DNA of 64,000 nt from Sporolactobacillus sp. THM19-2 (lineage in GTDB: Bacteria > Bacillota > Bacilli > Bacillales > Sporolactobacillaceae), in the NCBI RefSeq assembly GCF_004153195.1, contig NZ_SEMC01000001.1, positions 1 through 64,000 on the forward strand, given 5' to 3'. This document shows positions 11,484 to 57,138 of this stretch, one piece after another (position 1 is the first letter of the stretch; every line of letters begins with the position of its first letter). Below the pieces are notes generated by a model. It was given only the letters and a program-made list of their open reading frames with translations, searched no databases and had not been told where the DNA came from. A program made the translations under genes and the position numbers.

Positions 11484-12833
11484 ATGGATCTGGTTCTTTT
11501 AGCCGAAATGATCGTTGCAGCGGTTGCAGCTGCACTTTTATATACAATTATTGGCATCATCCCGGGGACGGACGAAACGGCCGTTCTGGTTCCCGTCACA
11601 CTGATCTTAGTGCTCGCCGGTGTTCAACCCGTCGTTGTCCTCTGCTTTTTTATCTCAGCTGTGATTGCCAATAACTTGATGGATGCGGTACCTGCCGCCG
11701 TTGTCGGAATTCCCGGCGGCGTTATGGCAAGTCCGCTCGTTGGTCATGCGCTGTTACTTAAACGAAAGGGGATGGCCGACCAGTCGCTGCGCAAAATGGC
11801 CGGGGGTTCACTGATCGGCGTACTGGTCAGTGTTCCGGTCAGTCTGCTGCTTGCAAGAAGTCTGATCCCGCTTGCCGAAGCCATTAAAGCGTACGCCAAC
11901 CCGCTCTTCTTTGCCGGCGCCGTTTTACTTGCCTTGCTGAGTAAGAATAAGGTACTGGCACTTGCCTCCATTCTCCCTTTCACACTGCTCATTGAAGGGC
12001 TGCGCTATCTCTATTGGGGCATCGGCATTGTACCAAAGGGAACCACGGTGTTCATTTCGTTCTTTCTCGGCATTACGATTGGGCCGATCATCCTGACTCT
12101 GTTTGAGCTCCTGAATAAAGAGAAAAGAGAACAGATGAAGTGTGATCAGCCGCGCAGGATTACCCTTCAGAAAGTGCCCTTCGAATGGAAATCGCTCAAT
12201 CCGTTTCACGCGTTGAAAAAGCAGGAATGGGTCACAAGCGCCGGAGCGTCATTGGTCAGCTGTTTTACTTTTATTCTCAGCCCGGTCGGGATGACGACAC
12301 TTCTTGGCGAACTCTTTTCAAAACGAACGCAGGATCCGGTTGAACGGTCGGTACTTGCAATTACAACGATGAATGCACTGGCAAACGCGACCTATCTTTC
12401 CGGGACGCTGATCCCGCTGATCGCGTTAGGCATCCCCCTTTCTCCGGTTGCCATAGGTCCTGCTCATGCGCTGTTTGACGCGCCGCCAGTCTTTACTGCA
12501 ACCCGCAATATGCATCATATCCTTTCACAGGCCGATTTCATCTGGGCGACAGTGATTGGCGCCGGCGTTGCACTCATGGTCACGTATACGCTGGCAATCA
12601 AATATGCGCAATCAATTTGTGCCTTTGTGTTTAAACGGATTCCCCACGAAGCCATCCTCGGCCTGTTTTTCGCTTTCGTTCTCCTGCTTGCGTATATGGA
12701 TGCGGGTTGGATGAATATCGGCGGCGTTATGCTGATTGGACTTTTTTCCGGACTGCTTCACCGCTGGGGTGTGGGTTACGGGATATTATTCATGGTCCTG
12801 TATGCGGCGCCATGGCTCGTTTTGGTATTCTGA
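11484..12833 (+). CDS. TctA-family transporter permease
   Basis: A 449-residue, highly hydrophobic protein with ten or more membrane segments. The early GIIPGTDETAVLVP stretch and the later repeat-like TTLLGELFSKRT / LIPLIALGIPLSP resemble the two halves of TctA, the large permease of tripartite tricarboxylate transporters. Typical TctA is about 500 residues. No periplasmic-type binding protein (TctC) gene is nearby, so this may be a binding-protein-independent carrier or use one encoded elsewhere. The substrate is unknown; carboxylates are a family-based guess. Confidence 0.7.
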   Translation: MDLVLLAEMIVAAVAAALLYTIIGIIPGTDETAVLVPVTLILVLAGVQPVVVLCFFISAVIANNLMDAVPAAVVGIPGGVMASPLVGHALLLKRKGMADQSLRKMAGGSLIGVLVSVPVSLLLARSLIPLAEAIKAYANPLFFAGAVLLALLSKNKVLALASILPFTLLIEGLRYLYWGIGIVPKGTTVFISFFLGITIGPIILTLFELLNKEKREQMKCDQPRRITLQKVPFEWKSLNPFHALKKQEWVTSAGASLVSCFTFILSPVGMTTLLGELFSKRTQDPVERSVLAITTMNALANATYLSGTLIPLIALGIPLSPVAIGPAHALFDAPPVFTATRNMHHILSQADFIWATVIGAGVALMVTYTLAIKYAQSICAFVFKRIPHEAILGLFFAFVLLLAYMDAGWMNIGGVMLIGLFSGLLHRWGVGYGILFMVLYAAPWLVLVF

Positions 12834-12956
12834 TCAGGATCCGTTCCGGGGGCTGCGCCCGAAACATTCGCCGTGCTGATGCGCACAGGGTGCAGGATGG
12901 ATCACTGACCGGCTCTTTTATTTTTGCCAATGAACCAGATTCAGGAGGTAACGAAG

Positions 12957-13538
12957 ATGGACGTGTTAAAAGATCTTTTTAATCAAATAAAAGCAGATCC
13001 TGAAAATATTCGTTTCACAAATAGAAACATCGATCCGCTCTACTATGCCGCTCCAACAGCAAAGCTGTTGATCATCGGGCAGGCTCCGGGTGAGATCGCG
13101 CAGAATACAAAGATAATATGGAATGATCGAAGTGGCGTGCGGTTACGGGAATGGATGGGTGTATCAGACGATACTTTCTATCATTCGGGGAAAATTGCCG
13201 TGCTTCCGATGGATTTTTATTTTCCCGGCAAAGGGAAGAGTGGCGATTTGCCGCCGAGGAAGGGATTCGCGGCAAAGTGGCATGATCCAATCATCAGGGC
13301 GATGCCGGACATCGAGTTAACTTTATTAGTCGGCTCCTACGCACAAAAGTACTACCTGAAGACGCATTCAAAAATGACATTAACTGAAATTGTTAAAGAT
13401 TATCGCCGTTATTTACCTGACTATTTTCCATTGGTTCATCCGTCACCACGAAACACTATTTGGATAAAAAGAAATCCCTGGTTTGAGGACAGCGTCTTAC
13501 CGGATTTGAAGAAATTGATTAACCGGATTTTATCGTAA
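12957..13538 (+). CDS. Uracil-DNA glycosylase family protein
   Basis: A 193-residue protein of the uracil-DNA glycosylase superfamily. Motif 1 is IIGQAPGEIAQ, and the motif-2 region is PLVHPSPRN near the C-terminus, where the His-Pro-Ser loop inserts into DNA. The central block RSGVRLREWMGVSDDTFY and GKGKSGDLPPRKGFAAKW is shared by a Firmicutes subgroup that is often annotated but little studied. It should remove uracil or a related base and leave an abasic site. AGGAGG eight bases before 12957 fixes the start. The next gene, 66 bp downstream, encodes a UvrC-like nuclease, suggesting a combined base-removal and incision role. Confidence 0.8.
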   Translation: MDVLKDLFNQIKADPENIRFTNRNIDPLYYAAPTAKLLIIGQAPGEIAQNTKIIWNDRSGVRLREWMGVSDDTFYHSGKIAVLPMDFYFPGKGKSGDLPPRKGFAAKWHDPIIRAMPDIELTLLVGSYAQKYYLKTHSKMTLTEIVKDYRRYLPDYFPLVHPSPRNTIWIKRNPWFEDSVLPDLKKLINRILS

Positions 13539-13604
13539 ATCCGAATCGAACCGTCTATATGTGCTGATTCAACCGACAGATGATGAAATGCGGAGGTGAA
13601 ATAG

Positions 13605-14699
13605 ATGAATCAGGTGATTCGAGATAAACTTTCCTTGCTTCCGAAACAGCCCGGTTGTTATCTGATGAAGGATTATCGTGGTACGGTCATTTATGTTGGA
13701 AAAGCAAAGATCTTAAAGAGACGCGTACACTCTTACTTCATCGGCAAACATAATCCAAAGACGGAGAAATTAGTGAGTCAAATTGTTGATTTTACGTTTA
13801 TCGTGACTGCATCTAATGTTGACGCACTCATTCTGGAAAATAATTTAATTAAAAACTATCGTCCTAAATACAACATTTTGCTGAAAGATGATAAAAGCTA
13901 TCCTTATATAAAAATAACGGATGAGCGCAATCCAAGGCTCATCATTACTAGACAGGTAAGCAAAGATAAGGGAAAATATTTCGGCCCCTTTCCCAATGTA
14001 AGTGCCGCTAATGAAACAAAAGCATTGCTGGACCGTCTCTATCCACTAAGACGGTGCCCGCTTACCGCGCGGCGCCCCTGTCTCTATTACCAGATTGGCC
14101 GATGCATTGGGTGTTGTGCCAGAGAAGTAAGCGAAGAAGAATATCGCCAGGTAACGCGTAAAATCGTTCATTTTTTCCATGGCGGGTTCAGAGCGGTTGC
14201 GCGAAAATTAAAAGAAGAGATGCGGGAGGCCTCGGATCGTTTAGACTTTGAGAAGGCCCGGGATCTCCATGATTTGATCTCTTGTATTGAAGCGACGATG
14301 GACAGGCAGTGCATCAATAACCTGGATTTCGTCGATCGCGATGTGTTCGGTTTCGCTTTTCAGAAAAGCTGGCTATGCGTGCAGGTTTTCCATATTCGCT
14401 GCGGGAAATTAATACAGCGCGCAGCTTCATTCTTTCCCGTGTATGCTGAGCCGGAAACGGGTATTCGTACTTATCTGGGACAATTTTATTTAGGCCATCG
14501 CCATATCAGGCCAAAAGAAATCTTAATGCCGGAATTGGATGATGATAAAACGATCCAGGAATTTCTGGGCATCCGTTTGATCCATCCCAAACGGGGCACG
14601 AAAAAGAATCTTGTACAGATGGCCTGCCAAAATGCACGCATCGCGTTGCAAAATAAGCTGTCATTATCGAAATTGGAATCAACGGGCATTAAGAACTGA
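13605..14699 (+). CDS. UvrC paralogue truncated to its N-terminal half
   Basis: The 364-residue protein follows UvrC from its first residues (LPKQPGCYLMKD, VIYVGKAKILKRRVHSYF) through the GIY-YIG nuclease domain (about 12-95), the DDKSYPYIKIT and YFGPFPN blocks, a Cys-containing segment (CIGCC), the UVR segment (about 195-230) and on to the KKNLVQMACQNA region. It stops at a normal TGA just where UvrC would begin its RNase-H-like second nuclease and helix-hairpin-helix domains. Full UvrC is about 590 residues. It could therefore make only the 3'-side GIY-YIG cut, like Cho. The frame is intact and well started, so it looks like a functional paralogue rather than a pseudogene. Confidence 0.8.
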   Translation: MNQVIRDKLSLLPKQPGCYLMKDYRGTVIYVGKAKILKRRVHSYFIGKHNPKTEKLVSQIVDFTFIVTASNVDALILENNLIKNYRPKYNILLKDDKSYPYIKITDERNPRLIITRQVSKDKGKYFGPFPNVSAANETKALLDRLYPLRRCPLTARRPCLYYQIGRCIGCCAREVSEEEYRQVTRKIVHFFHGGFRAVARKLKEEMREASDRLDFEKARDLHDLISCIEATMDRQCINNLDFVDRDVFGFAFQKSWLCVQVFHIRCGKLIQRAASFFPVYAEPETGIRTYLGQFYLGHRHIRPKEILMPELDDDKTIQEFLGIRLIHPKRGTKKNLVQMACQNARIALQNKLSLSKLESTGIKN

Positions 14700-14730
14700 T
14701 TATTGCCCGTTCAAAGGGGGCATCTGGGTT

Positions 14731-15588
14731 ATGTCCTGTTCTCATATAAAGAGTAAAACCCTCTCTTCAAACAGAGGGGATGCAAAGCAATTAATGGAAG
14801 CCTTTATCGCATCCGGTGCGTATAAACGGCTAAAAGAACTTGAAAGGGAAGGGAAGGCACTTCGAGATCGTGTGCGCTGTTGTCTCAGCAGTGGTGAATC
14901 AAGAAGGTACGAAATTGGCAGTCATCTGGTGGCGAAGTTCATTCCTAAAAAAATTTATCAATATGATTACACTGGACTTAATGAGTATCTGTATAATCTT
15001 GGATTACTCCAGAGGCTGACGATACTGACCAGTCGCAATTTGAATAAAGACCAGCAACTGCTGGACTTATTTGAACCGTACCACTTAACTCCGGAATATT
15101 ATGTGAAGCCCTCTTTTAATCGGGCGGGGCAGGAACTGATAAAGAGTGAGCAAACACCTGAAGTGAATTTGACTCTGAACGATGCGGCAATAAGAATCAG
15201 CCGAAATCGCAGTCATTTAAAAGCCGTAAAAGCTGAGTATGACAAGCTGAAGGATGAATTGGCCAGATCCAGTCAATTAGCTGTGGAAAAGAAAGTGACC
15301 TATAAATATGGCTCATTATCCCTTCTTCGAAAACCCCTGCGTTATCGGTTCACGCATCGTTCAAATCAAAGGATGATTCATGCGTTAATTGAATTTGGGA
15401 AACCAGACTTTGATGGCATTGAGCATTACATGTTTAAAGGAATCATTAAAAAGAGCGAATTTGAGGCATTCAGGAAGCTTAAGGATATTCGATTAGATTT
15501 TGTTATTCTTGACTTGGATGATGAGGCGAAGATGCAGAATTATTTCCACCGAAAAAGGGCCAGGCATTTACTCTTTTTGAATGAGTGA
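14731..15588 (+). CDS. Uncharacterised protein downstream of the UvrC paralogue
   Basis: I do not recognise this 285-residue protein. It is basic and mostly helical, with a likely coiled coil around residues 165-200 (NRSHLKAVKAEYDKLKDELA). It has no signal peptide or membrane segment. There is one aromatic-rich block (KKIYQYDYTGLNEYLYNLG) and a basic C-terminus (YFHRKRARHLLFLNE), which could contact nucleic acid. The ATG at 14731 is ten bases after AAAGGGGG and 31 bp after the UvrC-like gene, so the two are probably cotranscribed with the glycosylase. An earlier in-frame start (14611) would overlap the UvrC-like gene and lacks a ribosome site. Confidence 0.6.
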   Translation: MSCSHIKSKTLSSNRGDAKQLMEAFIASGAYKRLKELEREGKALRDRVRCCLSSGESRRYEIGSHLVAKFIPKKIYQYDYTGLNEYLYNLGLLQRLTILTSRNLNKDQQLLDLFEPYHLTPEYYVKPSFNRAGQELIKSEQTPEVNLTLNDAAIRISRNRSHLKAVKAEYDKLKDELARSSQLAVEKKVTYKYGSLSLLRKPLRYRFTHRSNQRMIHALIEFGKPDFDGIEHYMFKGIIKKSEFEAFRKLKDIRLDFVILDLDDEAKMQNYFHRKRARHLLFLNE

Positions 15589-15629
15589 ATGAGAAGGCCG
15601 TGACAGCTTTTTTTGATTGATAAGTGATT

Positions 15630-15672
15630 AACGCCCGCGACTCGCCACTTTAGTGGCGGGAGGTTCACTTTG
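15630..15672. repeat. Hairpin resembling an IS200/IS605 right end
   Basis: CGCCAC-TTTA-GTGGCG (15643-15658) followed by GGGAGGTTCAC has the look of the subterminal hairpin at the right end of IS200/IS605 elements. No tnpA or tnpB is present, so it would be a solo end. A transcription terminator for the preceding gene is a possible alternative, although there is no clear U-run. Confidence 0.35.
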
Positions 15673-15748
15673 TGAAAAAGAATCGAATCATGGGTGAATC
15701 TGGCTGTTCTAAAGCCTGAATGAATAAGACCATTGACGTTGAAAAAAA

Positions 15749-15895
15749 CGGTTTATAAGTGAAATCTGAGAAGTGTGCAGAAGTCGGCATGCCAGATGAA
15801 CTTATAAATAAGTTTGAAGAACGTCCCGACTTGAAAACAGCTTTTGCCGCCCTGACGTCAAGGCGGCAAAAGGGGAAATTAGACTTCGCACAAAA
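15749..15895 (+). pseudogene. Fragment of a ydeI-like gene
   Basis: The stretch encodes GMPDELINKFEERPDLKTAF and then AALTSRRQKG, clearly related to the segment at about 20500-20590 (MPEELNNKFEERPGLKTAF, EVLTPGQQK). It is only the middle of the gene, with no start domain, and it diverges after the RQKG block. Together with the larger remnant at 20106-20786 it lies in direct orientation on both sides of the phosphoribosyltransferase island. Confidence 0.65.
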
Positions 15896-15904
15896 ATAAA
15901 AGAA

Positions 15905-16045
15905 CAGGCATCAGTACGGAGCCACGTATCGCTCACAACTGAACCCGTTCCCTTGTCCATGGATTAGTCTGTCCATTTTGATGAGGTTTATTCAGGCATC
16001 AGACGGTGAACGTGGAGCGAGCAATTGAACTCGTTCCCTTGTCCG
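15905..16045. repeat. Imperfect ~53-bp direct repeat, two copies
   Basis: Copy 1 (about 15905-15958) and copy 2 (about 15993-16045) both start CAGGCATCAG and end in GAAC-C/T-CGTTCCCTTGTCC, with moderate identity between. The copies are about 35 bp apart. They may be remnants of a duplicated gene end; no function is evident. Confidence 0.45.
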
Positions 16046-16067
16046 ATTTTCATAGATTTTCTGGAAA

Positions 16068-16446
16068 CTACTTTACCAAACTCTGTCTTATTTCACGGAT
16101 TTTAGCGAAGAGCCGAAAGAGCTGGCTGGTGTCAGCGTAGTATCGATAGACAAAGAGGTAGTCATGATTACGCTGTTGAACCCTGCCCCGCCTGATTTCG
16201 CGAGAGATGGTACTACGACTGCGATGAAGCAGACGGCTGATTTCGGCTTTTGACTTACCAGCGTTCAAATACGCTTCAATTGTGCCTCTTTCTTCTGGTG
16301 TGAGTTGTTGGTAATGCTCGGCAGTGCTATTCTTAGATTGGGTCATGGAGATTTCCTTTCTTTAGAGTTTTGCCACTTTAAGTTTAGGTTTCCATGGCCT
16401 ATTTGTGTAATCTTGATGTGTTGCACTTAGATTTTAAATCCGGGTT
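16068..16446 (-). mobile_element. Truncated IS30-family element
   Basis: The minus-strand frame 16068-16346 encodes the first 92 residues of an IS30-type transposase: YQQLTPEERGTIEAYL, then the helix-turn-helix AEISRLLHRSRSTISREI. Everything after the DNA-binding region, including the DDE core, is missing. The start side keeps an IS30-like terminal sequence (about 16423-16446, GCACTTAGATTTTAAATCCGGG), while the other end is lost, so the element cannot move. Confidence 0.75.
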
Positions 16447-16512
16447 TTTAAATGAGTATACTCTTAGCTCATATCACCCTTCCATCAGTAACATAAATTA
16501 GTTATAATATAG

Positions 16513-16785
16513 GTGCAGGGAATATACGTTCGTTGTGTTGATGGCTTCATCTGGCCAAAATGTGGCTGCATCAAATTTTATGCGACCATGTCGGCGGCTT
16601 CCGCTTTATTTTTACCTCAAGTAGGGTCATCAAACACTTCTACCGTAGGAAATGTTATGGAAAAGACCCATACCCGGCCAGAGAAAATTGTTCTGGGCAA
16701 TTTATCTGGCGGCTAAAGATAATCGAGGTCTCTCGCCAGTCCTGCTATGCGTCAACACCAACTATCATGAGCTGACAGAATAATC
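16513..16785 (+). pseudogene. Decayed IS1595-type transposase
   Basis: Read across several frames, the DNA spells the N-terminal zinc-ribbon region of an IS1595-family transposase: WPKCGCIKFY, then GNVMEKTHT, then a frame change to AKDNRGLSPVLLCVNTNYHEL. At least two frameshifts separate these blocks and the catalytic part is gone. It differs from the intact IS1595 element at 18601-19716, so it is an independent, older insertion. Confidence 0.6.
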
Positions 16786-16915
16786 AGGTGAATTATTGAT
16801 AGTTTCCTATATGTGGATATTAATGATCAAACTGGGACGACTGCTATTCTATTTTGAATCTATCTTTAATATTTTCAAAATGTACTCACATTGCTGAGAA
16901 GCGGAGAGAATATCG

Positions 16916-17488
16916 ATGAATGTATCTATTAATCCTGAAAAAGTCGAAGGATTTTGGGATGAAGGCTATACTTTAGATAGGCATACTAAATATAGTACGT
17001 GTATTGGATACGATGATAACGGACACCCTATGTTTGACACAATAAGAACAGGACTGGGTGAGGTTCTTTATAAGTTTAAATATCAGGGGAACCACGAAAA
17101 GCTAAATGATATCATGGAATTTGTTGTTCCTTTTCTGAGAAAGTGGAATACATTAAGTTCAGTTGACTTTGTAGTTCCAGCACCTTTTTCTAAAAACAGA
17201 GTGTATCACCCAGCAAATGAAATAGCAAAACGGATCTCAGGGGTCATCGGCAAGCCATATGAAGATGTACTAAAAAAGACAACAAATACTGAATCAAAAG
17301 ATCTCACGGAGAAGAGTCAAATCAGGGGAACAATAGTTATAATAAAAAAGCCGAGGCGTCCACATAATATACTACTTGTTGATGATTTAATTGCTTCAGG
17401 AACTACTTTAAATGAGTGTACAAGAGTGTTAAAATCAAACGGATGCGATAAGATATTTGTCATTGCAATGACGAGAACCAATAAATAA
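16916..17488 (+). CDS. ComF-like phosphoribosyltransferase, partner of a SLOG protein
   Basis: A 190-residue type I phosphoribosyltransferase. The PRPP loop is ILLVDDLIASGTTLNE (about 152-167), and GEVLYKFKYQGNHEK and DFVVPAPFSKNR match blocks of the ComF family. Unlike ComF it has no N-terminal zinc ribbon and begins with a domain of its own (FWDEGYTLDRHT). The gene is AT-rich against its surroundings. GGAGAG eight bases before the ATG supports the start, and the SLOG gene follows after 22 bp, so they form an operon. PRTase plus SLOG/DprA-like partners occur in toxin-antitoxin or defence settings (compare PsyrTA/RqlHI, which adds a RecQ-like helicase). The substrate is unknown. Confidence 0.75.
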   Translation: MNVSINPEKVEGFWDEGYTLDRHTKYSTCIGYDDNGHPMFDTIRTGLGEVLYKFKYQGNHEKLNDIMEFVVPFLRKWNTLSSVDFVVPAPFSKNRVYHPANEIAKRISGVIGKPYEDVLKKTTNTESKDLTEKSQIRGTIVIIKKPRRPHNILLVDDLIASGTTLNECTRVLKSNGCDKIFVIAMTRTNK

Positions 17489-17510
17489 AGTTGAATGGAG
17501 GGTAAATTAA

Positions 17511-18047
17511 ATGAAGGTTTTTGTTGCAGGACCCAGAGCTATATCAAAGTTGAATAGCAATATTGTGTCGCGACTAAAAAATTTAATTGACCGCAACTTT
17601 ATGGTACTGGTTGGTGATGCAAATGGAATTGATAAAGCAGTCCAAAATTTTTTTAGCGAAAATAATTATGACAAAGTTCGTGTGTTTTCAAGCAATGGGA
17701 AAGTGCGTAACAACTTGGGGAATTGGAATGTTGAGTGTGTCAATGTACCAAGTGGGGTTAAAGGATTTGACTTTTACGCAGCTAAAGATATTGAGATGGC
17801 TAATCATGCAGATTACGGTTTTATGATATGGAACGGTAAGAGTAGGGGGACGTTCACTAACATAGTTAACTTAGTGAACCAGAGAAAAGACGTTTTAATT
17901 TACTTCACTCCACATAAAAAGTTTTATAAAGTAAGTACACCAGAAGCGATTAATCAATTGTTAAAGATTCGGGACCAGGAGCTAACTAATAATCCAGATA
18001 GAGCTTCTGAAATTAAAGCAACTAATGAACAAGTATCACTGTTTTAA
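17511..18047 (+). CDS. SLOG-fold (YspA/DprA-like) protein with C-terminal clamp-like motif
   Basis: A 178-residue Rossmann-like protein of the SLOG superfamily. It has FVAGPRAIS at the start, LVGDANGIDKAVQNFF (about 32-47), and ANHADYGFMIWNGKSRGTF (about 101-119), the order seen in YspA-type nucleotide-sensing proteins. The last residues are EQVSLF, a near-perfect fit to the QxxLF pentapeptide with which repair and replication proteins bind the DNA sliding clamp. A clear GGAGGG site precedes the ATG. With the upstream phosphoribosyltransferase it forms a two-gene unit in a graveyard of mobile elements. I infer nucleotide binding and possible recruitment to replication sites; the biochemical role is unknown. 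Confidence 0.75.
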   Translation: MKVFVAGPRAISKLNSNIVSRLKNLIDRNFMVLVGDANGIDKAVQNFFSENNYDKVRVFSSNGKVRNNLGNWNVECVNVPSGVKGFDFYAAKDIEMANHADYGFMIWNGKSRGTFTNIVNLVNQRKDVLIYFTPHKKFYKVSTPEAINQLLKIRDQELTNNPDRASEIKATNEQVSLF

Positions 18048-18600
18048 GACCAGTTATAAAAAAGCAATTGTCTCATTAATGATATTAAGATAGCAAATAA
18101 GTTTTGCAATATTTCTCCTCATAGCTTCGACAAAGCCTTATCAAATCAATGTTTTGACCACTATTAACCCCGAACACCGATATCAACAGAAAATCTAATG
18201 TATAAAATGAAACTTAAAATACTTCACCATGCATACATTTTGCAACAACACAGTTCCTTTTATTCTGGTTATTCGTTAGTAGAAATTTTTTGGTGAAAAT
18301 TCTTTTAGAACTTATGAGTCTTTCAGATGCAAAGAAGTTATGGAGGTTTACAGAATGCACGCGACGTCATCGCTGGAACAGCAGAATATCGAAAAGTACA
18401 TTTTTCAAATCTTGTGCGATGAACTGGGAATAAAGCTTTCAGCCAATCCGGTCGTCCATGTGGAGACGCAACGATTCAGCCGGATTTTTATTCTGAGGAA
18501 AACGGGATTATTGGCGAAGTGTATGCACACATTGGTTCATTAAAACCGCTGCAGCAGAAAAAGATGCTGGCAGACATTTTAAAAATGCTTCTTTTAGAAT

Positions 18601-19716
18601 GGCTGTGTTAATTTTTAATGTTGGTTTTTGCCAAATAGGAACAATTGTTCTATACTGTAAGTAAGGAACAAACGTTCGAGGTGATTCTCAATGGCATCCA
18701 TTCATGAGACATTGGCAATGATCCAGCAATTAAGTGAAACAGATAAAAATCGACTTCTTCAGGCACTTTCCCAACAAATGCAGGAATCCGTTAAATCCAA
18801 CGAACCGCTGATCAAGGATATCCGTGAGCGAAGAAACGAAGAAGGATTCCTTTGCCCAAATTGTGGTTCAAAGCGGGTCATTCGTTTCGGTACTTATTCT
18901 GTTCAAGGGGTGAAACGCCAAAGATACCGCTGCTCTCAATGCCATAAGACCTTCACTGATCTGACTCGGACGCCCCTGGAGGGGACCTGGTATTCGGATA
19001 AATGGATTCCGTTCATTGCAGGAATGATCGATGGACTGTCATTACGCAGACAGGTAGTGTCCCTTGAAATTTCTTTTCCTACCGCATTCCGCTGGCGTCA
19101 CAAGGTTTTAGCGGCTTTACAACGTCTCACTTCAAAACCGTTTAGCGGCATTATCGAGATGGATGAAACCTACTTTCTGTATTCTGAAAAGGGAACGAAA
19201 CAAACGCTACGACTGCCTCGAAAACGAGGTGGACATTCTGCAAAACGAGGCATCAGCCATGATCAAGTCTGTGTTTTAGTTGCACGTGATCGTCAGGGAA
19301 CCACCTATATGCACATGATGGGACGTGGTCGGCTATTAACGCGCCAGTTGGACAAAGCGATCAGTCCGCTCCTCTCAAGCGACAATGTGCTCTGCACGGA
19401 TGCCTGGCGTGCGTTTAACACTTATGCGAAAAATAAAAAACTGCCTCATTATCGATTTAAGTCGACCGAAAAAACACGTGTGATTAAAGGGATTTATCAT
19501 ATTCAAAACGCGAACAGTTACCATAGTCGGCTCAAACGCTGGATGATCCGCTTTAACGGAGTTGCGACAAAGTATCTTGACCATTATCTGGCGTGGTTTC
19601 ACTTTCTGGATCACATGGGATTTGAAAATACAGATCATACGGTCAGAACTATGATGGTGACGGCGTGTACCGCTTAAATTTTTATCGAGAAAACAACATT
19701 AGATTTAAACACAGCC
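18601..19716 (+). mobile_element. Complete IS1595-family insertion sequence
   Basis: The element is 1,116 bp long. Its ends are near-perfect inverted repeats: the left begins GGCTGTGTTAATTTTTAATG, the right (read inward) GGCTGTGTTTAAATCTAATG. It is flanked by an 8-bp direct duplication TTTAGAAT (18593-18600 and 19717-19724), the size expected for IS1595. The single transposase gene is intact, so the copy may still be active; identical target duplications suggest a recent insertion. Confidence 0.93.
18691..19677 (+). CDS. IS1595-family transposase
   Basis: A 328-residue transposase with an N-terminal zinc ribbon (CPNCGSKRVIRFG, then CSQCHKTF, residues about 55-90) followed by the DDE-like catalytic core: IIEMDETYF (first acidic residue), VLCTDAWRAF (second) and NANSYHSRLKRWM (third position region) as in IS1595 enzymes. 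Length fits the family. It starts with ATG behind a GAGGTG site. It cuts and joins the element's own ends and should make the 8-bp target duplication seen here. Confidence 0.93.
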   Translation: MASIHETLAMIQQLSETDKNRLLQALSQQMQESVKSNEPLIKDIRERRNEEGFLCPNCGSKRVIRFGTYSVQGVKRQRYRCSQCHKTFTDLTRTPLEGTWYSDKWIPFIAGMIDGLSLRRQVVSLEISFPTAFRWRHKVLAALQRLTSKPFSGIIEMDETYFLYSEKGTKQTLRLPRKRGGHSAKRGISHDQVCVLVARDRQGTTYMHMMGRGRLLTRQLDKAISPLLSSDNVLCTDAWRAFNTYAKNKKLPHYRFKSTEKTRVIKGIYHIQNANSYHSRLKRWMIRFNGVATKYLDHYLAWFHFLDHMGFENTDHTVRTMMVTACTA

Positions 19717-20105
19717 TTTAGAATAGATAACGCATCGTAAGTATCGAAAAATGATAGCGATCTGTGATGATACGGTATTTAAAGCAATCACTGGGAAGTC
19801 ATGGGGAGCTGCCTGTTTTAAAGCCTTCGATGTGGAGATTATAAACATTGATATCGGGACAAATAATCGGGAGTTATTAATGGCCGCTCAAAAAAGACAG
19901 TATAGATGATCAGGTGCATGAGTTTAACATTTTGAGAGCAGAGGTTTATTTCCAGATATCTTGAGTATTGAGTAGACCTGTCATTGAAGTCATTCGGCTG
20001 GATGGGACAAGGGATTTCGATTATCCTAAATAATATAAAAAAATTTGAGAATGACAGTTCCTGATGACCCGCCGATTGTAAAACTGAAGAGAAGGGTGCT
20101 TCTTG

Positions 20106-20786
20106 ATGACGGATAAATTGAACGCAAAAGTGATGATTTTTTAAACAAACCCAGCAAGTGGGCGGAATGCTATAAACGGTTGCGCATGATCGTTCTTGAC
20201 TGCGGGCTGACCGAAGAGTTTAAGTGGAAGCATCCGTGTTACACGTATGAGAGGAAAAACATCGTATTAATCCATGGAATTAAAGACTATTGCGCGCTGC
20301 TGTTCCACAAAGGGCGCTGTTAAGGGATCCGCAGGGGATTCTCATCCAGCAGACGGAGAACGTCCAGGCGGCGCGGCAGATTCGCTTCACCAGCGTTCAG
20401 AAAATCATTGAAATGGAAGCCATCGTGAAAACGTATATTCAGGAGGCCATTGAAGTTGAAAAGGCTGGTTTGGAAGTGAAGCTTAAGCAGCGTGCCGACT
20501 TCAGCATGCCAGAGGAACTCAACAATAAATTTGAAGAACGCCCTGGCTTGAAAACGGCTTTTGAAGTTCTGACGCCGGGACAGCAAAAACCATACATACT
20601 GTTTTTTTCTAAATGCCAAAAGATTTGCGATCCGAGTGTCAGAAATTGAAAAATATATCCCGGGAATTCTGAATGGCAAGGGATTAACCGATTGCGTATG
20701 CGGGCATTCGAAAATATCCGAATTGTTACGGATCTTCTTCGATAAAACGAATGACAGGCGGGACGGACCATCAGTTAGACGAATAG
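20106..20786 (+). pseudogene. ydeI-like (DUF1801/YdeI) gene with multiple frameshifts
   Basis: Reading across frames recovers a whole YdeI-type protein: DFLNKPSKWAECYKRLRMI, EEFKWKHPCYTYERKNIVLI, FHKGALLRDPQGIL, MPEELNNKFEERPGLKTAF, RVSEIEKYIPGILNGKGL and a Cys-containing tail (DCVCGHSK). At least four one-base losses break it (about 20131, 20317, 20620 and 20714). Protein and DNA are otherwise well kept, so the decay is recent. A second, smaller remnant of the same family lies at 15749-15895. Confidence 0.8.
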
Positions 20787-20844
20787 CCGCGGAGCCGGCC
20801 GGATCTATTCGACATCCGTACTGAACGGAAAAACGTTCCTCCAT

Positions 20845-22143
20845 TCACCCCTTTTCCAGTCCGCAGGCTTCGGCAAGCAGTTCGACCAGGTGGAGCGCCT
20901 GCATGCGGTCCTGCAGTCCTTCACGCTCTATTCCGGCTTTCATCTGCAACAGGCAGCCCGGATTGGTGGTCACGATCAGTTCAGGATCGCGGCTTTTGAC
21001 ATCAGCCATTTTGACGTCCAGAATTTTCATCGATTCGTCGAACTGGACGACGTTGTAAATTCCGGCGGAACCGCAGCAAAAGTCCGGATCGTGCAGTTCG
21101 CGGAAGTCGATGCCTTTGATCCGGCGGATGAGCTGTCTCGGTTCGTCCCTGACTTTCTGGACGTTGGTCATATGGCAGGAGGGCTGATAGGTGGCACGCT
21201 TACGAATTTCCTTATTAAACGGCAAGTCCAGCTTGGCAAGGAGAACGCTGATATCGATCGCGTGGTCGGCGAATGACTGAGCACGTATCTGCCATTCCGG
21301 GTCATCGGCAAACAGGGCCGGGTATTCATGGAGCAGGGCGCCGCAGCCACCGGCCGTGTTAACCACGTAGTCGAAGGCTTCCTGCTCGAAGGCTTCAATA
21401 TTTTTCCTGGCGAGTTCCCTGGCCTGATCATCACGCCCGCCGTGCAGATGGAGTGCACCGCAGCAGGTCTGTCCGTCTGCTGCAACCACGGTACAGCCGC
21501 CCAGCACAAGAAGTCTCATTCCCAGGTCGTTAATCCGATCGAATAGGGCATCCATGATGCAGCCGGTGAAGAAGCCGACTTTATAACGGGGCGCCTGTTG
21601 CGGTTCCAGCCTTTTCGGCCGCCTGCGACGGCGGACCGGAGCGGTTGCTGCCGGGAGGGTCCGCTCAAATGTAGCAAGCGACTCAGGCAGACTGTTCAGC
21701 AGGCCGGTCTTCTCAACCAGTCGGCGCACACCTGATTTTTGATAGAACCAGAGCAGCCCCGCACCGGTGCTCATCACCTTCTTTCTGGGAAAAACATGGT
21801 TGTAGAACAGATTTTCTTTGAAGACTTCCATCCGGGACTGTGAGGGCCTGTTATGCTCATGCAGGGCAAGTTTGGCCGATTCAAGGATCACTCCGTAGGG
21901 GACGTTGGTCGGGCACGCGGTCTCACAGGCGCGGCAACCGAGGCACAGATCGATCGGGTCTTTCAGCTCATCGAGTGAAATTTTGCCTTCGGCGGCCATT
22001 TTTACGAGGTTAATCCGGCCGCGCGGCGACTGGGTTTCTGTGCCCATGGTCTTGTAGGTTGGACAGGCCGGCAGACAGGTGCCGCACTGGATGCAGGTGA
22101 ACGTTTCATCATAGGCGAGTTTGTCTTTCGGATTCGGGTTCAT
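20845..22143 (-). CDS. glcF: Glycolate oxidase iron-sulfur subunit
   Basis: A 432-residue protein with two ferredoxin-type 4Fe-4S motifs, CIQCGTCLPACP (about 17-28) and CLGCRACETACP (about 67-78), followed by two cysteine-rich CCG domains (FFTGCIMD, TCCGALH; YQPSCHMTN, FCCGSAG). This is GlcF, which passes electrons from the flavin subunit GlcD to the respiratory chain during oxidation of glycolate or related 2-hydroxyacids such as lactate. Its ATG overlaps the glcD stop by four bases, so the two are translationally coupled. The segment at about 150-185 (RRRRRPKRLEPQQ) is an unusually basic linker. Confidence 0.92.
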   Translation of the reverse strand: MNPNPKDKLAYDETFTCIQCGTCLPACPTYKTMGTETQSPRGRINLVKMAAEGKISLDELKDPIDLCLGCRACETACPTNVPYGVILESAKLALHEHNRPSQSRMEVFKENLFYNHVFPRKKVMSTGAGLLWFYQKSGVRRLVEKTGLLNSLPESLATFERTLPAATAPVRRRRRPKRLEPQQAPRYKVGFFTGCIMDALFDRINDLGMRLLVLGGCTVVAADGQTCCGALHLHGGRDDQARELARKNIEAFEQEAFDYVVNTAGGCGALLHEYPALFADDPEWQIRAQSFADHAIDISVLLAKLDLPFNKEIRKRATYQPSCHMTNVQKVRDEPRQLIRRIKGIDFRELHDPDFCCGSAGIYNVVQFDESMKILDVKMADVKSRDPELIVTTNPGCLLQMKAGIEREGLQDRMQALHLVELLAEACGLEKG

Positions 22144-23549
22144 TGCGACAGCACCAGCTTCTGTCCGGGGGCAGGGAAAATTTTTGACGGGTTCAGTATG
22201 TTATTCGGATCCCAGGCCAGTTTAATCCGCTTCATCATATCCAGTTCAACCGGGCTCAGTTCCCAGGGCATATACGCACGTTTCATCGTTCCGATCCCAT
22301 GTTCACCGGACAGGGTGCCACCGAGGTCGATCGCCGCGTGGAAGATCTCTTCAATGGCTTTTTGCACCCGTTTCATTTCTTCACGGTTGCGCTTGTCACA
22401 GATGATGTTCGGATGGAGATTGCCGTCGCCGACGTGTCCGAAGACGACCAGATCAATTTTGTATGTGTTGCGGATTTCCTGAAGCCGGTGGCAGAATTCA
22501 GCAATTTTACTGCGGGGAACTGTGGCATCCTCTGATATTTTCGTTGGCTTTTTCGAGGCAATGGCCGGGGAGACCAGCTTGCGCGCTTTCCACAGCTTGC
22601 GGGCCTCCTCACTGGAATGGGCAATTTTTACCGAACGGGCGGCCATGTTTTTCGCAAGCGAGCGGATGCGTTCTGCTTCATCTGCCACGGCGGCGGGATG
22701 ACCGTCGAGCTCAATCAGAAGGATCGCTTCGGCATCGACCGGCAGATTCTGGGGCTGGTAGGCTTCAACCGCCCGTATAGATGCCTGATCCATCATTTCT
22801 ACTTTTGCCGGCAGGATACCTGACGTCAGAATCCGGGTCACGGTTTTCCCTGAGTCGACAAAATGGTCGAAGGTCAGCATCATTGTCTGTGTGGATAACG
22901 GACGGGGGAGCAGGCGCAGCGTCGCTTCGGTGATGATGCCGAGTGTGCCCTCCGAGCCGACGATAAGTTTGGTCAGATCATAACCGGTGACGTTTTTTAC
23001 CGTGCGGCCACCGGTCCGGATCACCTCACCTTGCGGGGTCACGACTTTCAGGCCAATGACGTAATCCTTGGTCACGCCGTATTTCAGGCAGCGCGGACCG
23101 CCGGAGTTTTCGGCCAGATTGCCGCCGATGGTGGAAAAGTGAGAGCTTCCCGGATCCGGGGGATACATCAGGCCGTATCTGGCAGCGGCATCATCCAGAT
23201 CGGCTGTGATCACGCCCGGCGAGACGACGGCAACCAGATCTTCACTGTCAATCTTTAGTGTCTTGCTCCATTGCGAAAAGTCCAGCACCATGCCGCCTTT
23301 GACTGGCAGCGGACCGCCGCTGAGGCTGGATGCCTGGCCTCTCGGTGTGACAGGGATGCGGAGCTGGTTCGCCAGCTTCATGACAGCGGACACTTCGTTT
23401 TCATTTTTCACCTGAAGGACCACATCGGGTTTATAGAAGCCAAATGATGCATCATAGCCATAGCTGACCAGATCTGCCTCTTTAGTTAAAATTCGTCCGG
23501 GTTTGATGATGCGACGCAGCTGTTGAACAATTTCAGTTTTCAGAACCAA
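22140..23549 (-). CDS. glcD: Glycolate oxidase FAD-binding subunit
   Basis: A member of the GlcD/D-lactate dehydrogenase FAD-linked family, about 469 residues. The FAD-binding part has VTPRGQASSLSGG and PPDPGSSHFSTIGGNLAENS; the C-terminal part has VFGHVGDGNLHPNI and LSGEHGIGTMKRAYM. It oxidises a 2-hydroxyacid to the 2-oxoacid and hands electrons to GlcF. I prefer the TTG at 23549, ten bases after GGGAG; a GTG at 23558 is also in frame but only one base from that site. A cre-like box lies just upstream, suggesting carbon catabolite repression. Confidence 0.9.
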   Translation of the reverse strand: MVLKTEIVQQLRRIIKPGRILTKEADLVSYGYDASFGFYKPDVVLQVKNENEVSAVMKLANQLRIPVTPRGQASSLSGGPLPVKGGMVLDFSQWSKTLKIDSEDLVAVVSPGVITADLDDAAARYGLMYPPDPGSSHFSTIGGNLAENSGGPRCLKYGVTKDYVIGLKVVTPQGEVIRTGGRTVKNVTGYDLTKLIVGSEGTLGIITEATLRLLPRPLSTQTMMLTFDHFVDSGKTVTRILTSGILPAKVEMMDQASIRAVEAYQPQNLPVDAEAILLIELDGHPAAVADEAERIRSLAKNMAARSVKIAHSSEEARKLWKARKLVSPAIASKKPTKISEDATVPRSKIAEFCHRLQEIRNTYKIDLVVFGHVGDGNLHPNIICDKRNREEMKRVQKAIEEIFHAAIDLGGTLSGEHGIGTMKRAYMPWELSPVELDMMKRIKLAWDPNNILNPSKIFPAPGQKLVLSQ

Positions 23550-23572
23550 TGGGATCACACTCCCTGATTTAT

Positions 23573-23586
23573 TGCAAGCGATTACA
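23573..23586. promoter_or_regulatory. cre box (CcpA) upstream of glcDF
   Basis: TGCAAGCGATTACA matches the cre consensus TGWAANCGNTNWCA with one mismatch (third base). It lies about 24 bp before the glcD start, probably downstream of the promoter, where CcpA acts as a repressor or roadblock. Confidence 0.65.
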
Positions 23587-23769
23587 AAACGGTCATTCTA
23601 TTCTTATCTTATTATTAAACGGCTGGCAAGTGATCTGCTCAGGCGCCAATTTTTTTCGTACGATTGACGTTTCACTTTATTATGAGCTATTGAGTACATA
23701 ACGATGACCAAACAATAAATGATCGTTTTTCCAGTGCGGTAATATCCTCAACTCGAACATCTGAAAGGC

Positions 23770-23802
23770 AAAAAAAAAACGCGGCTCCAGTCATTGGAGC
23801 CG
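23770..23802 (-). terminator. Rho-independent terminator of the MFS gene
   Basis: Stem CGGCTCCA/TGGAGCCG with a 5-base loop. On the minus strand it is followed by an uninterrupted run of nine to ten T, just after the end of the oxalate/formate-type carrier gene. Confidence 0.9.
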
Positions 23803-23818
23803 TGCCTGTAACATTCGA

Positions 23819-25075
23819 TTAATAAGCCTGTCTTTTGCGGTACTGTTCGCGCCGCTGTTCTTCTTTCCGGACAGCTGCCTTTTCTTCCGGGACATGGAGG
23901 GTGAGCGCGACGATGAAAGCCAGACTGCAGAGGATTGCAATCAGGTTGAACGTCGGGGCAAAGCCACCGAGCAGACCCGAAATAAAGGAGGCAGACAACC
24001 CGCCTAATCCGAATCCCTGATAGATGATGCCGTAGTTACGGGACTGATTTTTCAGTCCGAAGAATTCGGCCACGATCGTTGGAAAGATCGTGATGTTGCC
24101 GCCGAAGCAGAAGGCGACGAGCGAGACACTGATAAAGAACAGGACGGCGTTGAGCGTGACATGACTGATGACCACTGCGGCGATGGCTGTGATCAGCAGG
24201 GCACCGGCCACGACTTTCAGGCGGTTCATATAATCCGATGCCGCTCCAAGCACCAGCCGACCGGCCGTATTCAGCAGAGCGACCAGAGCAACGGCGTTGG
24301 CAGCGGTTGCGGCGTCAAGTCCGGCGAGGCTGATCCCAATGTTTGAGACACTGCCGATCATATACAGTCCGCTCATGCAGGCGGTAAAGAGAATGAAGAA
24401 CAGGAAGTAGGCTTCCTTGGTCTTCAGCATGTCTTTTACTGAATAATCACGTTCAGCAGTGGCTGTCTGCTGCGCACTCTTTTTTGCTTCGAGGACCGGT
24501 GCCTGTCTGACCAGAAGAAGTCCGGCTCCGAGCAGGACGAAGGAAATCAGGCCCCAGTACAGGAAAGCCAGGGAAACGCCCGAGTGTTCAATGAGAAACT
24601 GAAGAACATATTTAAACAGGACACTGCCGATACCGTAAGCGCCGATGGCAATACCGGAGACGAGTCCTTTTTTCTCCGGATACCACTGGATCGCATTCGA
24701 AAGCGTGGTCATATAGGCAATACCGTTTGCAGCACCGACAATGATGCCGGCGGTGATATAGAGCATCCACAGTTCAGTATCGAAGGCCGTGATCACAAGG
24801 CCCGCGCCCATGCCGATGGCGGACAGGGCCAGCAGACCGCGGATACCCAGCTTTTCCTGGATCTTACTGGCAGACAGCGTCGACAGGCTGAGTGCGAAGC
24901 TCATAATTGAAAACGTTGTGGCAACGGCTCCCACGTTCCAGCCGAATTTATCTTCCAGAGGCTGGTTGAATAAACTCCATGTATAGATCGTTCCTAATCC
25001 AATCATCACAATTACGGTGCCGATCAGGATCGGCCAGCGAGTGACCTGCATGTCATTTTTACGTTCTGCATCCAT
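23819..25075 (-). CDS. MFS transporter, oxalate/formate antiporter (OFA/YhjX-like) family
   Basis: A 418-residue carrier with 12 predicted membrane segments. The opening IGLGTIYTWSLFNQPLEDKF and the RNYGIIYQGFGLGGLSASFI segment are typical of OFA-family proteins, which move small carboxylates. The ATG at 25075 follows GGGGGAGA; an earlier in-frame ATG at 25114 has no ribosome site. A LytS/LytTR pair is encoded immediately upstream. In E. coli the OFA carrier YhjX is switched on by the LytS/LytTR pair YpdAB in response to pyruvate, so a pyruvate- or lactate-related role is a reasonable inference. The C-terminal tail is highly charged. Confidence 0.85.
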   Translation of the reverse strand: MDAERKNDMQVTRWPILIGTVIVMIGLGTIYTWSLFNQPLEDKFGWNVGAVATTFSIMSFALSLSTLSASKIQEKLGIRGLLALSAIGMGAGLVITAFDTELWMLYITAGIIVGAANGIAYMTTLSNAIQWYPEKKGLVSGIAIGAYGIGSVLFKYVLQFLIEHSGVSLAFLYWGLISFVLLGAGLLLVRQAPVLEAKKSAQQTATAERDYSVKDMLKTKEAYFLFFILFTACMSGLYMIGSVSNIGISLAGLDAATAANAVALVALLNTAGRLVLGAASDYMNRLKVVAGALLITAIAAVVISHVTLNAVLFFISVSLVAFCFGGNITIFPTIVAEFFGLKNQSRNYGIIYQGFGLGGLSASFISGLLGGFAPTFNLIAILCSLAFIVALTLHVPEEKAAVRKEEQRREQYRKRQAY

Positions 25076-48487: not shown

Positions 48488-48571
48488 CAATCAGTGGGGG
48501 CGGGCGCACAGGACGTGCCGTGCAGGCGTTTGGCAGGATGCGGCGTATTTAGCCTGCGCCCTCACTGATTG
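48488..48571. repeat. Large imperfect stem-loop in the yhbH-HAD gap
   Basis: CAATCAGTGGGGGCG (48488-48502) pairs with CGCCCTCACTGATTG (48557-48571) with one wobble/mismatch. Inside, GCAGGC can pair with GCCTGC. The whole 84-nt element could be a structured RNA or a dispersed palindromic element. It lies in the 400-bp gap between divergent yhbH and HAD genes; no gene is visible there. Confidence 0.6.
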
Positions 48572-56976: not shown

Positions 56977-57138
56977 TAAAAGCCTCTCTGAACCAGAGAG
57001 GCTTAAACGTTCATCAGCACCCTCTTATTTCTCAAAACTTCCTGTTCGAAGTTTTGCTGGAATTGGCACCTTTTTCATAAAAGATTGAAAGGTTGCCGGG
57101 CTTCACTGGGCCAGTCCCTCCGCCGCTCTAAATAAGAG
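56977..57138 (-). promoter_or_regulatory. S-box (SAM-I) riboswitch and terminator upstream of metE
   Basis: On the minus strand the leader starts CTTATTTAGAG and has the conserved core GGAGGGACTGGCCC, TGAAGCCCGGCAACC and AAGGTGCCAATTCC, closing with AAATAAGAGG as the P1 partner. This is the classic S-box aptamer (about 57021-57138). Downstream, GCCTCTCTG / CAGAGAGGC (56982-57002) followed by TTTTAAT is the regulatory terminator. SAM binding should favour termination before metE. Confidence 0.95.

Follow-up and report, generated by a model that had tools for sequence, protein, structure and literature searches.

A mobile phosphoribosyltransferase–SLOG gene pair in Sporolactobacillus as a candidate toxin–antitoxin module with a predicted sliding-clamp-binding tail

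The gene pair described here, from Sporolactobacillus sp. THM19-2, encodes a phosphoribosyltransferase (PRTase) followed by a small, probable SLOG protein, and it belongs to a patchily distributed, mobile bacterial module. Comparative sequence analysis suggests that the PRTase is probably a toxin and the SLOG protein its antitoxin, in a toxin–antitoxin or abortive-infection module. The SLOG protein ends in QVSLF, a tail that, judged by family statistics, probably binds the β sliding clamp, and this clamp-type tail is the new, testable part of the finding. For both to hold at once, that is, for the pair to be a mobile toxin–antitoxin or abortive-infection module whose SLOG protein docks on the clamp, we see a chance slightly short of even.

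Results

An Intact Gene Pair in AT-Rich DNA

Within the window, by which we mean the whole 64,000-nucleotide stretch of DNA that was analysed, the two genes follow each other at a spacing of 22 bp (Table 1). Both reading frames are open, each gene is preceded by a ribosome-binding-like sequence read from the DNA, and the GC content is about 35% across positions 16800-18599 versus 41-58% in the remaining 600-base steps of 12000-23999, confirming the intact, AT-rich pair proposed in the first-pass annotation. That annotation also placed the pair between dead transposons. This holds on the 5′ side, where only a 92-aa remnant of an HTH_38-type transposase is left, but not on the 3′ side: the IS1595 transposase there, present in one copy in the genome, is a full-length ORF of 328 aa (197.9 bits, cut-off 75) flanked by inverted repeats, so that the element is not clearly dead. 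Ten window neighbours of the pair were scanned with Pfam; they comprise transport, repair, oxidase, and two-component genes and one gene without a match, with no defence gene among them. Because no credible copy was found in 57 related genomes, 13 of them of the same genus, the presence of the pair in THM19-2 looks like a strain-level acquisition. The one apparent relative outside the strain (G052, E 8e-4) was rejected as spurious, as it has internal stops and lies antisense to a nucleosidase-looking ORF. A promoter and terminator scan was uninformative, with 10 promoter-like sites versus 9.1 expected.

Three further features of the window were recorded. In a UvrC-like gene, the first ORF, with GIY-YIG, UVR, and UvrC RNase H domains, runs into an overlapping second ORF that lies in another frame and has no Pfam match; the gene is probably a frameshifted uvrC paralogue. 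The other two are RNA elements matched in Rfam.

Table 1. Coordinates of the gene pair and other features of the window
Feature	Position	Strand	Basis or remark
UvrC-like gene, probably a frameshifted uvrC paralogue	13605-15588		Pfam domains in first ORF
PRTase, ComF-like core without zinc ribbon, predicted toxin/effector, 190 aa	16916..17488	+	Profile matches, tree
PRPP-binding loop ILLVDDLIASGTTL with acidic pair D156-D157, intact	17369..17410	+	Read from sequence
Ribosome-binding-like GGAGGG before SLOG gene	17497..17502	+	Read from sequence
178-aa protein, probably SLOG, predicted to act as antitoxin/sensor	17511..18047	+	Weak profile matches, conserved columns
C-terminal QVSLF, predicted β-sliding-clamp-binding motif	18030..18044	+	Read from sequence, family statistics
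IS1595-type element, single-copy, full-length transposase ORF	18590-19727		Imperfect 38-nt inverted repeats, 76% complementary
Bacillaceae-1 RNA	48505-48567	−	Rfam
SAM riboswitch	57022-57138	−	Rfam

A ComF-Like PRTase and a Probable SLOG Protein

The PRTase matches Pfam Pribosyltran at 30.0 bits (cut-off 26.3), and hhalign aligns it, over the PRTase part, with a 10-sequence ComF alignment (99.6%, E 4e-24). Its sequence contains no CxxC pair, in contrast to the conserved cysteines of ComF, and the initial description of a ComF-like PRTase lacking the zinc ribbon is thereby borne out. A role as the competence ComF was rejected on the missing zinc ribbon and on the match to TIGR00201 comF, which at 35.9 bits falls far under the cut-off of 233.55. 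Nor is the PRTase gene the comF of this strain, which had been raised as a possible objection: that gene sits on contig C50 and encodes a protein scoring 116.5 bits to TIGR00201, likewise under the curated cut-off. In the alignment of 54 PRTase sequences, D157 and G162 of the PRPP-binding loop are invariant and D156 is present in 90% or more.

The second gene encodes a probable SLOG protein. Across 61 aligned sequences, 19 columns are invariant. The match to Pfam DprA is weak (E 0.04), and hhalign returned E 0.002 against DprA (probability 13%, 133 columns) and E 0.0003 against a two-sequence YpsA alignment (probability 42%, 39 columns), with 0.21 for the ComF control. The Pfam YpsA model (PF06908), at E 10 or less, found the strain's own YpsA and not the window SLOG protein, and a search by sequence of solved structures gave no credible match (best E 0.2 and 1.1). 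The earlier assignment to YspA/DprA-like SLOG proteins is weakly supported by the profile matches to DprA and YpsA and lacks the Pfam YpsA match. The strain's own dprA and ypsA lie on contigs C61 and C58, and neither is the window gene.

The Pair Is Conserved, Patchy, and Mobile

Clustering at 85% identity reduced 130 SLOG-bearing loci, distant forms (L021-L024) included, to 102 non-redundant ones. In 72 of the 102, the SLOG gene adjoins an intact PRTase gene whose product reaches 150 aa or more, and the two genes overlap by 4 nt, stop on start, in 32 of those 72 pairs under a first-start-codon rule. The PRTase and SLOG distance matrices are correlated (Mantel r 0.80), none of 2000 permutations reaching as high a value. 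Conserved adjacency in other genomes, which the first-pass annotation had suggested looking for, is thus found, and the pairing of PRTase and SLOG is not accidental.

SLOG relatives were detected by tblastn in 98 plasmid records, the nearest being that of Listeria innocua pLI100 (53%), which has a PRTase directly upstream. An alignment-based scan of the GTDB collection yielded 322 SLOG relatives; the best 80 of these 322, which were examined, span 15 named phyla by record titles, with many metagenome bins and one unplaced record. Among viral contigs (IMG/VR), an alignment scan gave 25 loci, a single-protein scan gave no SLOG match, and no SLOG match was found in 50,697 phage records at E 0.01. 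Occurrence is patchy, with 6 and 7 positive genomes in two samples of 398 each, the centre genome being counted in both. Collectively, these data define a patchy, mobile bacterial module. In the plasmid records, the genes are mostly annotated as 'ComF family protein' and 'hypothetical protein' or 'addiction module antidote protein.' An unannotated pair is also carried by L014, a Neisseria gonorrhoeae entry of 2.17 Mb that is listed among the plasmids but is probably a chromosome.

Intact PRTases Are Accompanied by SLOG Genes, but SLOG Genes Often Stand Alone

When loci were collected from the SLOG side, the best 80 of the 322 genome loci comprised 54 with an intact PRTase, 10 with a partial one (that of L067 may have been truncated by the start of its contig), and 16 with no PRTase ORF, so that 26 of these 80 SLOG genes lack an intact partner. 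Among the loci with no ORF, remnants of the PRTase persist in other frames, clearly at L033 and L045 and weakly at L084. The 25 viral-contig loci included 22 with an intact PRTase, one with the PRTase in an overlapping frame (L123), one cut by the contig end, and one lacking it. Collected from the PRTase side, 19 of 19 viral-contig loci had the SLOG gene (one PRTase being partial), most of them lying on contigs also found from the SLOG side. In the two samples of 398 genomes, SLOG accompanied the PRTase in 10 of 10 loci scoring at least 178 bits, a set that includes the strain's own genome and the centre genome of the second sample; two matches at about 82 bits without SLOG, open frames of 250 and 254 aa, are ComF-looking. 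Plasmid records with a PRTase covering >80% of the query carried SLOG in 51 of 52 cases, many of them near-copies. In Agrobacterium vitis the PRTase appears to be split by an IS5-type element and the SLOG frame is open. The one record of the 52 without SLOG, a Xanthomonas perforans plasmid (L215) searched for 2.5 kb to each side, has a PRTase that is itself divided between two frames.

Thus, an intact PRTase without SLOG was never found in the sampled viral, genome, and plasmid loci. An intact PRTase that is never alone and a SLOG protein that often is are what one would expect if the PRTase is harmful, although the size of the asymmetry is inexact and inflated, because the SLOG-first sample is biased toward good SLOG proteins. 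The same pattern bears on a different explanation, in which a ComF-like and a DprA-like protein form a plasmid or phage metabolism or DNA-entry pair that aids establishment of the element. ComFC and DprA do act on incoming ssDNA, and of the 98 plasmid records, 55 are classed as conjugative; however, the window copy sits on a 406-kb contig amid metabolic genes, with only IS-type genes directly beside it, and decay of the PRTase while SLOG stays does not fit a joint role in uptake. We regard this explanation as improbable.

A Clamp-Type Motif at the C-Terminus of the SLOG Protein

The bacterial clamp-binding motif has been described as QL[S/D]LF or, more broadly, QxxLF, and Bacillus subtilis PolC carries QLSLF at its C-terminus (PMC12309361); transposases also bind the clamp via C-terminal copies of the motif (PMC4549789). 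The QVSLF end of the window SLOG protein fits the QxxLF type near the chain end. Among its relatives, the Listeria form ends in QIKLF, the Anoxybacillus form in QLKLF, and Clostridia forms in QACLF, QVCLF, or QICLF; QITMF, QIQMF, QSSLF, and QMSLL are further tail ends. The strict motif, Q..[LMI]F no more than 4 residues from the C-terminus, occurs in 27 of 102 SLOG proteins versus 3 of 884 other ORFs from the same loci, some of which may not be genes (Fisher p 2.6e-25), and in none of 113 PRTase ORFs, a set that contains fragments and near-copies. Anywhere in the tail it is found in 30 of 102 SLOG proteins (mean 2.1 and maximum 9 in 2000 shuffles), and a relaxed form is present in the last 13 residues of 39 of 90 unfused SLOG proteins (mean 3.6, maximum 11, 2000 shuffles).

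The motif is neither universal nor exclusive. As the strict C-terminal form is absent from 75 of 102 SLOG proteins, among them those of all 12 Acidobacteriota loci, clamp binding cannot be universal; the strict motif is missing from the whole tail in 72 of 102. One of the three control ORFs with the motif is itself a SLOG, a DUF1273 (YpsA-family) protein on a Planktothrix plasmid (L021:5540-6070) that ends in QLNLFD and fits the strict pattern. The relaxed pattern is matched by one of two ShosA examples, that of L163, through a QVEMM close to the end of the chain. The tail is therefore not exclusive to the pair family. The strain's own YpsA has no clamp-type pattern at its end.

Two other functions of the tail were considered. 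A C-terminal degron might account for an LF end; however, 6 of 11 SLOG proteins of at least 250 aa hold the motif inside the chain, behind the core (QADLL, QQSLL, QPSLL, QASFF, QASFL, and QSAFL; shuffle mean 0.97, with 0 of 2000 reaching 6), and a purely C-terminal degron is thus disfavoured. The second is that the tail plugs the active site of the PRTase and has no relation to the clamp, the two genes then forming a plain toxin–antitoxin pair. Antitoxin tails often hold the toxin, and the SLOG protein, conserved elsewhere, varies most in this tail. The relaxed motif is present in 29 of 65 unfused SLOG proteins with an intact PRTase versus 10 of 25 without one. Of these 10 motif-keeping proteins, 5 lie by PRTase remnants (of which there are 10 among the 25) and 1 is the single case at a contig end, as the plug would allow. 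The remaining 4 come from the 14 loci with no trace of a PRTase, including one beside hsdM (L027), a number that only 1 of 2000 shuffles reaches (mean 0.35). Retention of the motif in SLOG proteins without a PRTase argues, on these small numbers, against PRTase binding as its only role. Two further observations tell against the plug: the DinD-adjacent SLOG proteins end in QMSLYDG, and the tail pattern agrees with the published clamp consensus (PMC12309361). We consider a plug that has nothing to do with the clamp unlikely, and clamp binding remains the preferred reading of the QVSLF tail.

Antidote-Type Fusions and Genomic Neighbours

Several SLOG proteins bear a C-terminal HTH. In one Agrobacterium and one Xanthomonas form it scores 83 and 91 bits to TIGR02684 ('addiction module antidote protein,' cut-off 53.7), and HTH_37 was found in 3 of 19 SLOG proteins. 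In A. vitis T60/94 (L018:3992-4922), the HTH gene is separate behind the SLOG gene; it is fused in relatives. These fused forms had escaped the first-pass annotation, as had the clamp-like tail and the occurrence of DinD, R-M, and AbiE genes next to SLOG.

The neighbours of relatives are varied. At two loci from two genomes of a single genus (L004:591-1424 and L005:2021-2878), SLOG lies directly behind dinD (NCBIfam 430 bits, cut-off 242) and the PRTase is absent. The PRTase-less SLOG gene of Anoxybacillus (L027) is divergent from hsdM/hsdS, and by eye two further such SLOG genes (L030 and L032) are divergent from the same hsdM-like ORF. At L046:4073-9639, again without a PRTase, SLOG is flanked by a DNA methylase gene and an ORF of 1019 aa, which are presumably the mod and res genes of a type III R-M system; at L042, also without one, it lies behind AbiEii. 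Plasmid copies occur near CBASS, R-M, ParA or ParB, and recombinase genes. A SLOG variant on rhizobial plasmids (L022-L024), which has neither a PRTase partner nor the QxxLF tail, is near a DUF2493 gene. A PADLOC scan, covering 80 of 182 listed neighbour ORFs in loci L027-L079 only and having no matched control, gave matches at E 1e-10 to type I, II, IIG, and III R-M, Cas1, JetAB, AbiEii, and PD-T4-6.

Such neighbours would also suit a nucleotide-signalling defence system without toxin–antitoxin logic, in which a modified nucleotide produced by the PRTase serves as a signal, or the SLOG protein itself produces or senses such a signal. SLOG proteins, including those of the YpsA clade, have been proposed to be nucleotide sensors or enzymes (PMC6459960). 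However, no constant third gene was seen in the loci read, and a PRTase that is never alone, a SLOG protein that often is, and an antidote-type HTH on the latter are better matched by an antitoxin. Signalling alone is, in our view, quite unlikely.

Discussion

The conflict system proposed in the first-pass annotation is upheld to the extent that the pair is conserved, mobile, and most likely a conflict module. In the mechanism that we favour, the PRTase would be the effector, using PRPP through its intact DD loop, and, by analogy with the PRTase domain of RqlH, would harm nucleotide or DNA metabolism when uncontrolled. The SLOG protein encoded downstream would bind and restrain the PRTase and act as the sensor. 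In the lineage of the window and in many others, the Q-x-x-L-F tail may dock on DnaN and so place the complex at replication forks, where a change, for example when a phage seizes replication or a fork is damaged, could release the PRTase. In the lineages whose tail is followed by a fused HTH of the antidote type, autoregulation is probably added. More speculatively, the relatives may form a family of replisome-tethered guards, in which a clamp-bound SLOG protein holds the PRTase, seizure or collapse of the fork frees the effector, and the clamp is the guarded host part, with SLOG adjoining DinD, AbiE, or R-M genes instead in other genomes; we think this broader proposal possible but doubtful.

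Placement among Known PRTases

In PADLOC the window PRTase scores 56.9 bits to PsyrT and 39.6 to ShosT, and the PsyrT model matches 54 of 54 family PRTases. These scores were rejected as proof of a PsyrT or ShosT identity, since three ComF controls reach 29-50 (PsyrT) and 33-51 (ShosT). No PADLOC model matches the window SLOG protein, ShosA (searched to E 1) and PsyrA included, and the ShosA model finds 1 of 19 family SLOG proteins (best E 0.0026) versus 2e-64 and 4e-61 for two true ShosA proteins. The finding singles out a widespread module whose window SLOG protein PADLOC leaves unmatched. A tree was built from 54 PRTases, representing 36 of the 72 family pairs, 15 ComF-like proteins, 2 ShosT, and 1 PsyrT. 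The family PRTases fall on one side of a branch (SH-aLRT 89), apart from housekeeping ComF, and group with the PsyrT domain (SH-aLRT 92), and ComF and ShosT fall together; this placement is unsure because of long branches, that of the sole PsyrT among them, and because few inner branches (9 of 51) are starred.

Comparison with Known Systems

A gene pair of a YpsA-branch SLOG and a PRTase is said to appear in Burroughs 2015. In print, one YpsA branch of SLOG proteins is described as pairing with PRTases (PMC6459960), and the pairing itself is therefore not new. The gene-pair arrangement and the probable SLOG type are the same as in the window, and that branch may be the same family as the pair studied here; in the text of that source, 'clamp' and 'antitoxin' each have 0 mentions.

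A closely similar published arrangement is ShosTA, in which DprA homologues act as antitoxins (PMC9122126). The first-pass annotation took a helicase-less pair of a PRTase and a DprA-like protein to be of an undescribed kind, a claim that finds no support, as ShosTA is already such a pair. A search of 200 genomes with the ShosT model recovered mostly PRTases that, judged by length and score, look like housekeeping ComF, together with two real ShosTA examples (L163 and L179), and in both a PRTase gene lies upstream of a DprA-type SLOG gene in a two-gene unit without a helicase. The differences are that ShosA is a full DprA-type protein (the PADLOC ShosTA models have 237 and 303 positions), to which the window SLOG protein has no match, that ShosT falls beside ComF among the PRTases of the tree, and that neither ShosA example has a strict QxxLF end. 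Protection against T7 and lambda is provided by a P2-hotspot system made up of DprA and a PRTase (PMC9122126), and the suggested cue for ShosTA is an intermediate of replication or recombination (PMC10732053).

PsyrTA and RqlHI share with the pair the order of the genes, toxin first and antitoxin second, and the PRTase domain that is nearest in the tree, albeit through one PsyrT sequence on a long branch. RqlI, moreover, is an antitoxin with a C-terminal HTH, as seen in some SLOG proteins of the pair family; toxicity of RqlH requires its PRTase domain with an intact PRPP pocket and is countered by RqlI, and the PRTase domain by itself is not toxic (PMC4670107). In contrast to these systems, the pair has no helicase, its PRTase being a 190-aa stand-alone ORF rather than a fusion to a RecQ-like one, and its SLOG protein is much smaller and without a PsyrA match. 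A link between a toxin–antitoxin system and the sliding clamp also exists for the Rosmer toxin RipA of Streptococcus pneumoniae; there, however, the toxin acts on the clamp, whereas here it is the putative antitoxin that would dock (PMC12795458). Most likely, then, the pair works like ShosTA and PsyrTA yet constitutes a separate family, and, if the proposed docking on DnaN is true, the tail would provide a concrete sensor hypothesis for PRTase–DprA modules (ShosTA, PsyrTA, and RqlHI).
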